Shown: one piece after another, positions 1,347-7,151 of the stretch
Position numbering within the stretch: position 1 is the stretch's first letter
How the letters are laid out: the number at the start of each line of letters is the position of its first letter
Origin: Candidatus Desantisbacteria bacterium CG1_02_38_46
Lineage (GTDB): Bacteria > Desantisbacteria > UBA1551 > UBA1559
Direction of reading: 5' to 3'
Assembly: GCA_001871015.1 (NCBI GenBank)
Contig: MNUO01000124.1
Span: 3,531 to 16,584 of the forward strand
DNA: 13,054 bases
Notes under the pieces: generated by a model
What the model was told of the DNA's origin: nothing
Database searches by the model: none
Seen by the model: the letters and a program-made list of their open reading frames with translations, nothing else
Made by a program: the position numbers and the translations under genes

Positions 1347-1613
1347 ATGACAATTGAAGAAGTTGCGGAAAGGGTTAAAAAAGTGGTTTCAAAGCAATTG
1401 AAGGTACCGGTAGAGGAAATCAAAGATAGTTCTGATTTCGTAAAAGACCTCGGAGCTGAGTCAATTCAGAGTATAGAACTTGTGGCTGCGTTTGAGCAGG
1501 AATTTGACATAACTATGGATGAAGAGGCAGCTCTTGAAGTAAAAAATGTCGGTAGCGCAATAGGGTTTATTAAAAAAATATTGGACCAGCAGGGCAAGAA
1601 AAATCAGACCTGA
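1347..1613 (+). CDS. Acyl carrier protein
   Basis: This is an acidic 88-residue carrier protein. The motif DLGAESIQSIELV (34-46) contains Ser39, the expected attachment site for 4'-phosphopantetheine in the DSL-type helix-II motif. The length and four-helix pattern match the standalone ACP family. The in-frame ATG at 1332 is possible, but GAGGAGGAG (1334-1342) is an excellent ribosome binding site for the ATG at 1347, so the later start is chosen. The ATG at 1332 overlaps the end of the upstream gene, so the two are probably co-transcribed and coupled. The last residues (NQT) and the TGA stop lie inside the first copy of a hairpin repeat, so the native 3' end appears to have been overwritten by the repeat. 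It could be the housekeeping ACP or a dedicated one for the neighbouring enzyme. No fatty-acid synthesis genes are visible to decide this. Confidence 0.93.
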   Translation: MTIEEVAERVKKVVSKQLKVPVEEIKDSSDFVKDLGAESIQSIELVAAFEQEFDITMDEEAALEVKNVGSAIGFIKKILDQQGKKNQT

Positions 1614-1652
1614 AGGTCTGAGTTACGAATCAGACCTGAAGGTCTGAGTTAC
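1602..1652 (+). repeat. Two direct copies of hairpin repeat, form A
   Basis: The 25-bp unit occurs twice (1602-1626 and 1628-1652), separated by one base. Each copy is a hairpin, CAGACCT-GA-AGGTCTG, with the tail AGTTAC. The first copy contains the TGA stop of the acyl carrier protein (1611-1613). The tail and size match the copy at 16-38, but the stem sequence differs by paired changes that keep it complementary (AGACCT/AGGTCT versus AGGACT/AGTCCT). The second copy meets the inverted form-B copy at an 18-bp perfect palindrome (1644-1661). Confidence 0.85.
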
Positions 1653-1727
1653 GTAACTCAGGACTTTAGTCCTGAAGGTTTGAGTTACAACATACAGACG
1701 TAACTCAGGACTTTAGTCCTGAAGGTT
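1653..1727 (-). repeat. Two copies of hairpin repeat in inverted orientation, form B
   Basis: Copies start at 1653 and 1700 and share 28 identical bases, beginning GTAACTCAGGACTTTAGTCC. Each contains the hairpin TCAGGACT-TT-AGTCCTGA. The first copy is also enclosed by outer arms GTAACTCA (1653-1660) and TGAGTTAC (1681-1688), giving a hairpin within a hairpin. The second copy lacks a clean right arm. After base 1727 it diverges into ATGGATAAC, which runs into the promoter before nagB. Relative to form A and the copy at 16-38, these units are inverted, as in paired REP/BIME elements. Confidence 0.82.
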
Positions 1728-4384: not shown

Positions 4385-5019
4385 AGAAGCTAATGTCTTT
4401 GCTATTTTCGTTGTTAATTTTGCAGGTTCAATCTTATGAATGTTGGGGGCAGTCTGGAACAGCGGTTAATCCCCCTCCTCAGCCGCTTTCTGCAGAGGAT
4501 GCTAATCTTATATTGAAAAAGGGAAAGAATTTATTTGACAGCGCCCATTATGAAGAAGCGAGCAGGGAATTTTTAGTCGTCGCCCAATCAAATGATGCGC
4601 CCCAAGAAGACAGAATTAAAGCACGTTATTTTCTGATGAAGATATATCGTGCCTATGGAGAAGATGAAAAAGTAAAGAACGAAATAATAGAAATCCTGAA
4701 ATTGAATCCCAATTATACACCTTCGTCCAGAGAGCCAGCTTCTGTTAGAAAATTATTCAAAGAGGTTAAGGAGGAATTTTTGAAAGGACAGAGTGCAAAA
4801 GAATCAGGTATCCGCCCAGAAGCAGGTGTTCTTCAGTCCATGCTAATGGAGGATATGGCGACGCTCGAGCGTTCCCTGGCCCAGGCCTCCTCCTATCAGG
4901 AGAGTTTCAGCCTTAAAGTGGGCAAAATGGAAAAAGAATTCAAGAAATTAAAATTAAGTTTTTATACTACTTCCTTAACCCTTTTTTTGCTTTTAGCAGT
5001 AGGAATTGGATTTAAATGA
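4381..5019 (+). CDS. Exported TPR-like protein with C-terminal membrane anchor
   Basis: I do not recognise a named family. The 212-residue product opens with a signal-like segment (MKKLMSLLFSLLILQVQS, 1-18). A proline-rich linker and a helical TPR-like region (about 38-135) follow, including KGKNLFDSAHYEEASREFL (47-65) and a LNPNYTP motif (108-114) ahead of a VRKLFKEVKEEF helix (122-133). A charged, probably coiled-coil stretch occupies 150-192, and a hydrophobic helix (about 194-210) ends the protein. The topology suggests a periplasmic scaffold anchored in the inner membrane. AAAGGA (4367-4372) supports the ATG at 4381. The stop overlaps the murG start (ATGA), so the two are co-translated, which suggests an envelope role. 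Interaction with the upstream PEGA kinase is possible but unproven. Confidence 0.8.
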   Translation: MKKLMSLLFSLLILQVQSYECWGQSGTAVNPPPQPLSAEDANLILKKGKNLFDSAHYEEASREFLVVAQSNDAPQEDRIKARYFLMKIYRAYGEDEKVKNEIIEILKLNPNYTPSSREPASVRKLFKEVKEEFLKGQSAKESGIRPEAGVLQSMLMEDMATLERSLAQASSYQESFSLKVGKMEKEFKKLKLSFYTTSLTLFLLLAVGIGFK

Positions 5020-6158
5020 AAAATGATGTGAAAATAATAATTGCTACCGGTGGGACAGGAGGACACCTTTATCCTGCGCTGGCTGTAGCGCGAATGCTTG
5101 GAACGCGTGCAAATCTAAAACTGTTGTTCGTCGGCGGAAAAGGAAGTTTAGAAGAAAAAAAAGTAAGCAGTATTTGTATACCTTTTAGAGGAATAGTGGT
5201 AAGGAAGTTTCTTCGCGGACAATTTATTTTCTTACCATCTTTTATATTGAATTTATGCATTGCTTGTATTCAATCCTTTTTTATCATTATGGAATTCAGG
5301 CCTGATGTTGTTGTTGGAATGGGTGGTTATGTAAGTGGTCCAGTGCTTCTAACAAGTGCATTATGTGGCATACCTACTTTGATTCATGAGCAGAATACTG
5401 TTGCGGGACTTACCAACAGAATTCTGGCTAAGTTTGTCCGCAGGATAGGTATTACATTTGAAATGTCAAGAAGATATTTTCCCAATACTAAAACTGAGTT
5501 TATTGGTAATCCTGTCAGGGAAGAAGTGCTTACAGCTCAAAGGGACTCATCAGTTAAGAAACTTGGTTTGCAGCCAAATAAGAAAACAGTTATTGTATTT
5601 GGTGGAAGCAGCGGAGCGAAGAAAATTAATAAGGCTATAGTAGATGCCCTTAAATTTCTGGACGGCTCCAATCTTCAAATCTTACACATCACCGGGCCCA
5701 ATGACTACAACTATGTAAAATCATTAACTTCTGCTTTACACCTTACAAATTGCGCCTTATACTTATATTCATATCTCGACAACATATGGGATGCCCTGGC
5801 GTCAGCAGACCTTGTTGTCTCACGTGCAGGAGCTACAAGTATCGCAGAAATTACAGCAAGGGGACTTCCATCAATTCTAATTCCATATCCGTATGCTTCT
5901 GAAAATCACCAGGAATTAAACAGTCGCGTATTAGAGGAAAAGGGTGCTGCCAGAGTTCTGTTAGACAGGGAACTTACTGGTGAGAATTTAGCAAGGGAGA
6001 TTTTGAATTTAATTGGTGATGATGAAAAAATGAAAAGGATGGCTTATCAAAGCAAATCCTTTGGACAGCCAGATGCAACCAAGAAATTGGTAAACGCTAT
6101 TTATCAATTGGCTCTTCCAGAGAGCCTACTTTCGGTCGCAAGACCTACTCGGTCGTAA
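5016..6158 (+). CDS. murG: MurG, lipid II-forming GlcNAc transferase
   Basis: MurG transfers GlcNAc from UDP-GlcNAc to undecaprenyl-PP-MurNAc-pentapeptide (lipid I) on the inner face of the cytoplasmic membrane, giving lipid II. The 380-residue GT-B glycosyltransferase shows glycine loops TGGTGGHLYPALA (11-23), VGMGGYVSGPV (100-110) and VFGGSSGAKKINKAI (194-208), plus HEQN (124-127). The UDP-GlcNAc site is AGATSIAEITARGLP (271-285) with Glu278, and then His298, Gln299 and Asn302. The length is slightly above the usual 355-365 because the last residues (about 373-380, SVARPTRS) are encoded by a 17-bp hairpin tandem array that supplies the TAA. The downstream TPR-SPOR gene is in the same frame beyond that single stop. 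The usual mur/fts neighbours are not present in the window. The start overlaps the upstream stop (ATGA). Confidence 0.96.
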   Translation: MKNDVKIIIATGGTGGHLYPALAVARMLGTRANLKLLFVGGKGSLEEKKVSSICIPFRGIVVRKFLRGQFIFLPSFILNLCIACIQSFFIIMEFRPDVVVGMGGYVSGPVLLTSALCGIPTLIHEQNTVAGLTNRILAKFVRRIGITFEMSRRYFPNTKTEFIGNPVREEVLTAQRDSSVKKLGLQPNKKTVIVFGGSSGAKKINKAIVDALKFLDGSNLQILHITGPNDYNYVKSLTSALHLTNCALYLYSYLDNIWDALASADLVVSRAGATSIAEITARGLPSILIPYPYASENHQELNSRVLEEKGAARVLLDRELTGENLAREILNLIGDDEKMKRMAYQSKSFGQPDATKKLVNAIYQLALPESLLSVARPTRS

Positions 6159-6220
6159 GACCTACTTGGTCGCAAGACCTACTTGGTCGCAAGACCTACT
6201 TGGTCGCAAGACCTACTTGG
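6134..6220. repeat. 17-bp tandem hairpin array at murG 3' end
   Basis: Five head-to-tail copies of GGTCGCAAGACCTACTT start at 6134, 6151, 6168, 6185 and 6202, flanked by partial copies (CCTACTT at 6125-6131 and GG at 6219-6220). Each unit is a hairpin GGTC-GCAA-GACC whose loop has the GNRA form. Copy 1 ends in C instead of T, and copy 2 has loop GTAA instead of GCAA. That second change creates the murG stop TAA (6156-6158). Units 3-5 are identical, which suggests recent expansion. On the complementary strand each unit reads GTAGGTCTTGCGACC, a GTAG-plus-hairpin pattern like REP elements. There are no spacers, so this is not a CRISPR. Confidence 0.9.
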
Positions 6221-6227
6221 CAAAAAA

Positions 6228-7151
6228 ATGAATAATTACCACCTGAAACATTCCTTTGTGCTTTTATGGTTCATCTTATTGGTCATTTTGGCTCCTCGCT
6301 CTTTTTGTATGGACCCCGCCAAGGTTCTGTTTGAAGATGCTACCAGAGAATCAAACCAAAATATCGTTGTTGATAAACTCAGGGAGATTGTAGAAAAATA
6401 TCCAGAGAGTCCACTGGCAATTGAATCGCTATACATAATTGCAGAGCAGGAATATCTGAAAGAAGACTATGCGCAGGCTTACCGGGAATTCCAGACTTTA
6501 ATTGAGAAGTTTCGCAGAAACAAATATTCATCATTGGCCTGGTATAGAAGAGCATCCTGTTTATTCGCCGTATGCGAATATGATGAGGCAATCAAGGAAT
6601 TTCGACAATCAATTTCCCTTAACCCCTGGGGTGAACAGTGCAGTCTTGCAAAGATTGGAATCGCTGATGCATATTTTGCAAAGAATGATTATCACAGAGC
6701 CCTCAGAGAATATAAATCCATCTCAGGCGGACCATTTCATCAATACATTCTCTATAAGATAACCCTGTGTCATCAAAATCTTCACAATGAAAGAGAATTT
6801 AAAATGTCAAAAGAAGAATTGATAAAAAAATATCCACTGAGTGTAGAATCTATGCTAATAGCCAATGCAACAGAATTGAATCTTGCGACAGACGAATCTT
6901 TGAAGGTTCCCTTAGAAGCAGTATGGACGATTCAGGTTGGTTCATTCACCAGAGAGGAAAATGCCCGAAACTTAAGTGCTACTCTGAGGAAAAAAGGGTA
7001 TATTTCGTGGATACAACGTGTAAAAATAGGGGAGGGATTTTTTTATCGGGTATATCTTGGAAAATTTAAAACTGAAGAAGAAGTGAAGAGGAAAGCAGAA
7101 GAGGTAAATCGTAAAGAAGACCTTCCTACCCGCATCGTCGAGTTAAAGTAG
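6228..7151 (+). CDS. TPR-SPOR envelope protein
   Basis: The 307-residue product has an N-terminal signal or anchor helix (about 8-27, ending APRSFC). A TPR-like region covers about 30-205, including KYPESPLAIESLYIIAEQEY (57-76) and YDEAIKEFRQSISLNPW (118-134). The C-terminal SPOR domain spans about 232-306 (WTIQVGSFTREENARNLSA, 233-251; FFYRVYLGKF, 271-280). SPOR domains bind peptidoglycan strands stripped of stem peptides, and TPRs mediate protein contacts, so a periplasmic role in wall growth or division is inferred. The organisation resembles YbgF/CpoB-type proteins plus SPOR. The ATG at 6228 is chosen because the signal sequence starts there. An upstream in-frame extension lies wholly in the tandem repeat. 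No ribosome site is visible before the ATG, since the repeat occupies that position. Expression may rely on reinitiation after murG, or on readthrough, because both genes share one frame. Confidence 0.87.
   Translation: MNNYHLKHSFVLLWFILLVILAPRSFCMDPAKVLFEDATRESNQNIVVDKLREIVEKYPESPLAIESLYIIAEQEYLKEDYAQAYREFQTLIEKFRRNKYSSLAWYRRASCLFAVCEYDEAIKEFRQSISLNPWGEQCSLAKIGIADAYFAKNDYHRALREYKSISGGPFHQYILYKITLCHQNLHNEREFKMSKEELIKKYPLSVESMLIANATELNLATDESLKVPLEAVWTIQVGSFTREENARNLSATLRKKGYISWIQRVKIGEGFFYRVYLGKFKTEEEVKRKAEEVNRKEDLPTRIVELK

Follow-up and report, generated by a model that had tools for sequence, protein, structure and literature searches.

The 3′ end of murG contains dispersed repeat units

The window analysed here (the whole 13,054 nt stretch of contig MNUO01000124.1) encodes MurG followed by a TPR-SPOR protein, with a block of repeat DNA at the junction of the two genes. 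The features of the locus are as follows.

5016–6158, + strand: murG, 380 aa as it stands, with the last ~13 residues repeat-encoded (TIGR01133, 310 bits, residues 1–362)
6112–6220, + strand: the whole inserted element, 109 bp (24 + 5 × 17), composed of two unit types that are both dispersed in the genome
6112–6135, + strand: a unit of the 24 bp family (family B), CTCTTCCAGAGAGCCTACTTTCGG, with a GTAG tag on the minus strand, encoding ALPESLLSV in MurG
6136–6220, + strand: five units of the 17 bp family (family A), TCG(C/T)AAGACCTACT(C/T)GG, with the hairpin GGTC-GCAA-GACC
6156–6158, + strand: the TAA stop codon of MurG, from the GTAA loop of the second 17 bp unit
6228–7151, + strand: a separate TPR-SPOR protein with a signal-peptide-like N-terminus, the orthologue of which adjoins murG in genome G001, a member of the same order

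The original prediction described a 17 bp tandem repeat beginning at position 6134. The repeat is present (TRF at 6134–6220: period 17, 5.1 copies, 95% match), but the repeat DNA actually starts at 6112 and consists of one 24 bp unit and five 17 bp units, with insert junctions of CAATTGG^CAAAAAAATGA. The array is far from chance expectation, as reversed-pattern controls yielded 0 compared with 12 and the RNA folding z-score is −3.98. Units identical to the 24 bp unit were found on contigs C45, C59 and C89, and elsewhere. A scan of the window against Rfam at gathering thresholds gave no matches. The predicted C-terminal peptide of MurG is ALPESLLSVARPTRS, and in a model of the protein based on a 28-sequence alignment the pLDDT was 92.9 overall and 61 for residues 371–380.

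The 17 bp family is dispersed across the genome

The genome searched for units comprises 1.73 Mb in 133 contigs and is 87.8% complete. We identified 36 units of 17 bp on 12 contigs of the window's own genome, in arrays of 1 to 8 units. Every 17-mer forms a small perfect hairpin, GGTC-GCAA-GACC, with TACTT after it; the opposite strand reads AAGTAG plus the hairpin. The loop is variable (GCAA in 16 units, GTAA in nine, GTTA in five, ATCA in three, TTAA in two and TTAG in one; n=36), and the variants cluster by locus (permutation p = 0.0017). Within the murG array, the GTAA loop of unit 2 is indeed the odd one, the other four units having GCAA, but it is a standard variant of the family and not a private mutation: nine of the 36 units genome-wide carry it.

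The 17-mer, insertion of which would cause a frameshift, was found inside a gene at 0/12 loci. Like murG, two more genes (L009 and L021, on contigs C26 and C89) take their stop codon from a 17-mer unit. The 17-mer pair pattern had no match in 58 other genomes, the exact pair had none in the genome-contig database, and neither the 17 bp nor the 24 bp unit pattern had a match in IMG/VR.

It is very improbable that the array arose by local tandem duplication through slippage alone, without mobility. Such an origin would fit the homogenization of loop variants within arrays, but the same 17-mer units occur on 11 other contigs and the 24-mer on many more, as near-identical copies with clean junctions. 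Slippage is refuted as the origin of the array, although it is likely to have shaped array length. Copy-number change within the arrays is plausible, given their range of sizes (1 to 8 units) and their local homogenization. With a period of 17 bp and a GGTC/GACC stem of 4 bp, counting the G of GTAG, the unit is smaller than GTAG REPs, which are 20–40 bp long with stems of 5 bp or more; it works like a canonical REP, while not being filed as one.

The murG–SPOR junction is very probably an insertion scar

The original prediction correctly identified the TAA at 6156–6158 as the sole in-frame stop across 5016–7151, which is otherwise open. When the insert was removed and its flanks joined, MurG ended ...NAIYQLAKK* and its TGA overlapped the SPOR start codon as ATGA, giving ...CAATTGGCAAAAAAATGA... 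as the probable empty-site sequence. The inferred overlap is of the same type as those at other junctions in the window (1332/1335, 5016/5019 and 10466/10469), and the MurG tail beyond the domain reference point would be ~11 residues if restored, compared with 23 at present and a homologue median of 13. From the rejoined sequence, we infer that before the insertion murG and the SPOR gene were already distinct genes, overlapping at ATGA. The two genes now share a frame because 109 = 1 mod 3 and because of this likely ancestral overlap; the prior for two genes sharing a frame is 1/3. The consensus 17 bp unit has zero stops in all forward frames, so any array on the murG strand would be open in all three, and one GTAA unit closes one of them. 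The reverse strand has TAG in every unit.

In G001, murG and the SPOR gene are adjacent, separated by ~245 bp containing several stops, and there is no murG–SPOR fusion. The intergenic region is unalignable, and G001 itself therefore does not show the empty junction. The G001 murG end (L096, G001:C106) carries a different 8 bp tandem repeat, AACAAGTA ×4, unrelated to the array in the window; this gene end has thus collected repeats twice.

These data bear on the proposal that a regulated MurG–SPOR fusion or phase switch operates here, through readthrough of the TAA or a change in unit number. The shared frame interrupted by one stop is compatible with a switch, as are a unit length that is not a multiple of 3 and the differences in array length among loci. 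However, the stop variant is common across the 17 bp family, the likely ancestral junction held separate genes, and comparison with the related genome, where gene order is kept, revealed no fusion. In addition, a signal-peptide-like N-terminus begins the SPOR protein at 6228, and a fusion would bury it. The absence of a clear Shine–Dalgarno sequence upstream of this ATG had been offered as a reason to consider readthrough or reinitiation; the observation holds, but an obvious ribosome site is likewise missing at some five further gene starts in the window. We consider the switch most unlikely. The stop and tail of MurG were donated by an insertion, and what looks like a murG–SPOR switch is very probably the scar that a mobile palindrome left behind; the two proteins would be made separately. 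The last alternative of the original prediction, a repeat insertion, was right, in the form of dispersed hairpin units. Its observations were confirmed in part, and its interpretation is partly supported. As a caution, tandem repeats that suggest a ‘switch’ where a gene ends may be a routine insertion.

A different function for the array would be that of an RNA hairpin maintained because it protects the 3′ end, acts in attenuation or uncouples the translation of murG and SPOR. The array RNA folds better than shuffled sequences (z-score −3.98), and REPs are often transcribed and located downstream of genes (PMC3733652). On the other hand, copies occur in both orientations and also within coding regions, and the array is not conserved at this site in G001. 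We regard such a role as unlikely, and it is not exclusive of insertion by a mobile element, with which it is compatible.

The 24 bp family is found in frame within protein genes

The 24 bp family, CNCTTCCAGAGNGCCTACTTYYGG, gave 53 right-end matches for GCCTACTTYNGG, compared with one in the reversed control. The unit is dispersed over about 36 loci, within the 20–40 bp size range of multi-copy REPs, and GTAG adjoins its palindrome, the minus strand reading CCRAAAGTAGGCNCTCTGGAAGNG, as in GTAG-tagged REPs. The stems vary with compensation (CTCT/AGAG, CACT/AGTG and CCCT/AGGG), which keeps the palindrome intact.

At 13/36 loci, 24 bp units lie in frame within protein genes (at least 13 genes), a count that depends partly on ORF calls and leaves out antisense and very short ORFs (e.g. 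L109 and L128). The host genes encode MobA, a mannose-1-phosphate guanylyltransferase-like protein (ManC-like), AroA-Cmk, a CCA-adding enzyme, a LarA-like protein, a P-type ATPase, a RecB/AddA-like protein, an aminotransferase, a CoA activase, a radical SAM protein, a VCBS-like protein, a ferredoxin-ETF alpha protein and a purine nucleoside phosphorylase (PNP). Names were derived from translations and homologues; for AroA, PNP and CoA activase, solved structures provided further matches. The in-gene frequency of the 24-mer contrasts with 0/12 loci for the 17-mer and 1/30 for a 26 bp family described below, the single case being L140, within an ORF near its C-terminus (Fisher p = 0.00015, 24-mer vs both).

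Orthologues in G001, G025 and G028 (up to about 73% identity in G001, lower in the others) do not have the inserts; for two of the 13 genes (L204 and L209) no orthologue alignment spans the insert. Relative to orthologues, the inserts lengthen CoA activase by exactly 8 residues, AroA by 16, the ManC-like protein by 23 and PNP by 18. Removal of the insert resulted in a higher bit score and fewer gaps in 10/10 cleanly excised genes; L196, where the excision was one base off (49 bp), was not counted. The CoA activase insert corresponds to an 8-residue gap against 1hux, and in a weak AroA model, built from only 3 sequences, the insert is modelled with low confidence and joins a helix to a strand. 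Together, the sequence comparisons show that the 24 bp family inserts without frameshift in at least 13 protein genes other than murG.

Mitochondrial byp elements offer a comparison in which in-gene inserts are spliced or bypassed. Given that the hairpins lie within essential genes, the in-gene copies might likewise go untranslated, but every cleanly measured insert is open and a multiple of 3, so bypass is unneeded and we consider it highly improbable. Even less probable is an assembly or binning artefact: the assembly is a draft, but each copy has unique gene flanks, the inserts have exact 24n lengths in real genes, and synteny with G001 is retained.

A nested 48 bp copy lies in frame in a RelE-type toxin gene of G001 (L245, G001:C19), a possible horizontal carrier of the family. 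It was the single copy found in a relative, with zero copies of the 24 bp family in 384 further genomes.

24 bp units are nested within one another

The compound copies can be written as (CxCTTC)n C (AGAGxGCCTACTTTYGGC)n, with left and right n equal: 2/2 at seven loci (L171, L174, L182, L187, L192, L196 and L197) and 5/5 in MobA (L195), the one exception being L166 (2/1). In all four mixed-stem compounds (L174, L182, L192 and L197) the unit order is L1 L2 R2 R1. Each compound would be explained by a unit entering at CACTTC^CAGAG, and the pattern of half-units indicates that the family nests inside its own copies in 24 bp steps. The same rule of insertion before a C also fits the insertions into two other hairpin families, at CTCTG^CCACTAC and GCTTTCG^CAAGAAAGC.

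These observations lead us to speculate that the element is a self-nesting mobile palindrome, in which a new 24 bp unit enters a hairpin loop, either that of a pre-existing unit (CACTTC^CAGAG) or that of a different hairpin (GCTTTCG^CAAG), with no target duplication. Arrays would then grow inside-out, always by a multiple of three, so that the element could persist and expand within essential proteins, reaching five layers in MobA. We put this model forward as a serious possibility that falls somewhat short of being probable.

Origin and mobilization of the units

The HUH enzyme TnpA-REP cleaves folded single-stranded DNA beside GTAG hairpins (PMC8266576). By analogy, the GTAG tag, the hairpin, the lack of target duplication and the preference for hairpin loops most likely match REPs handled by TnpA-REP. 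The units would spread to new sites by copying of folded single strands, carried out by a TnpA-REP/RAYT-type HUH transposase, and 17 bp arrays may then gain or lose length through slippage, as local homogenization suggests. Harmless copies would survive: those between genes, at gene ends, or present as multiple-of-three units in tolerant protein loops.

In this 88% complete genome we found an IS200-like fragment and two RAYT-like genes, of which one is interrupted by a stop and the second scores 79.9 against a cut-off of 80. No 17 bp or 24 bp unit was found beside any of these. As no RAYT-like gene is flanked by units, we infer that mobilization would occur in trans. The flanks of the RAYT-like genes were rejected as a source of the units, as no unit is present there and the ends are other inverted repeats. 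The inverted repeats flanking the RAYT-like genes (L051, L052 and L115) are unrelated to the units, and AGGGTCAGACCTCAACATC surrounds L052. The L051 gene is the one broken, by TAA, and an end matching the flanks of a RAYT-like gene sits upstream of the CoA activase gene.

Overall, the feature at the 3′ end of murG is very probably an inserted GTAG-tagged, REP-like palindromic mobile element.

Comparison with known palindromic elements

GTAG-tagged REPs have been reported within ORFs of several species and can donate stop codons through GTAG (Di Nocera et al. 2013, PMC3733652), so that neither the location within genes nor the donation of stops is new as a phenomenon. The elements described here resemble them in being short, dispersed and palindromic, with unpaired GTAG on one side, some wholly in ORFs, with frequent stop donation and stem variants that still pair (PMC3733652). 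They differ in having stems of 4–5 bp (24-mer) or 3–4 bp (17-mer) rather than the 5–13 bp described, and the 17 bp unit is also shorter than GTAG REPs as described. Self-nesting in the order L1 L2 R2 R1, in fixed 24 bp steps, is not mentioned for GTAG-tagged REPs in PMC3733652, and the host here belongs to an uncharacterized lineage.

The best-known in-frame palindromes are the Rickettsia palindromic elements (RPEs) (PMC10969869). Like these, the 24 bp unit is inserted in a wide range of unrelated protein genes without disturbing the frame (PMC10969869, PMC3733652); however, RPEs are ~150 bp or have a CGTC tag, whereas the unit is 24 bp with GTAG. REPtron Mb of Marinomonas is similar in its small perfect palindrome and GTAG. 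Its palindrome has a 5 bp stem and is processed by a TnpA-REP, and its REPs are concentrated near the transposase gene (PMC8266576), whereas no unit flanks a RAYT-like gene here. Judged by the open-access papers searched, three things seem to be new: a frame-neutral unit of 24 bp, the nesting of this unit within itself and how densely it occurs in this lineage.

The repeat family itself is more interesting than the murG–SPOR junction. It amounts to a dense, naturally occurring collection of insertions in which a very small mobile palindrome has entered core enzymes without disturbing the reading frame, in a host lineage that is deep-branching and poorly sampled. It is also an example of mobile DNA writing gene ends and protein loops. 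The junctions allow tests of REP-like spread by loop-targeted, single-stranded insertion.

Other hairpin families

A further dispersed palindrome family lies upstream in the window.

1602–1653, + strand: two 26 bp units, which supply the TGA stop of an acyl carrier protein gene (KKNQT*)

This family, CAGACCTGAAGGTCTGAGTTAC (window 1602–1725), has 85 matches genome-wide, with compensatory stem changes, and an identical KKNQT* ends three other genes (L135, L142 and L144). We read the gene-end cases of both the 26-mer and the 17-mer as stop donation. Arrays of another GTAG family, GTAGTGGCAGAGTTTACTCTGC, were observed at L120, L126 and L132, with 24 bp units inserted at CTCTG^CCACTAC. Finally, a larger C-rich...G-rich hairpin element carries in its loop either the 17-mer (L032, L033, L036 and L098) or the 24-mer (L195, L204 and L205), and three of these composites lie in frame in genes, namely those encoding MobA, the RecB-like protein and the aminotransferase.
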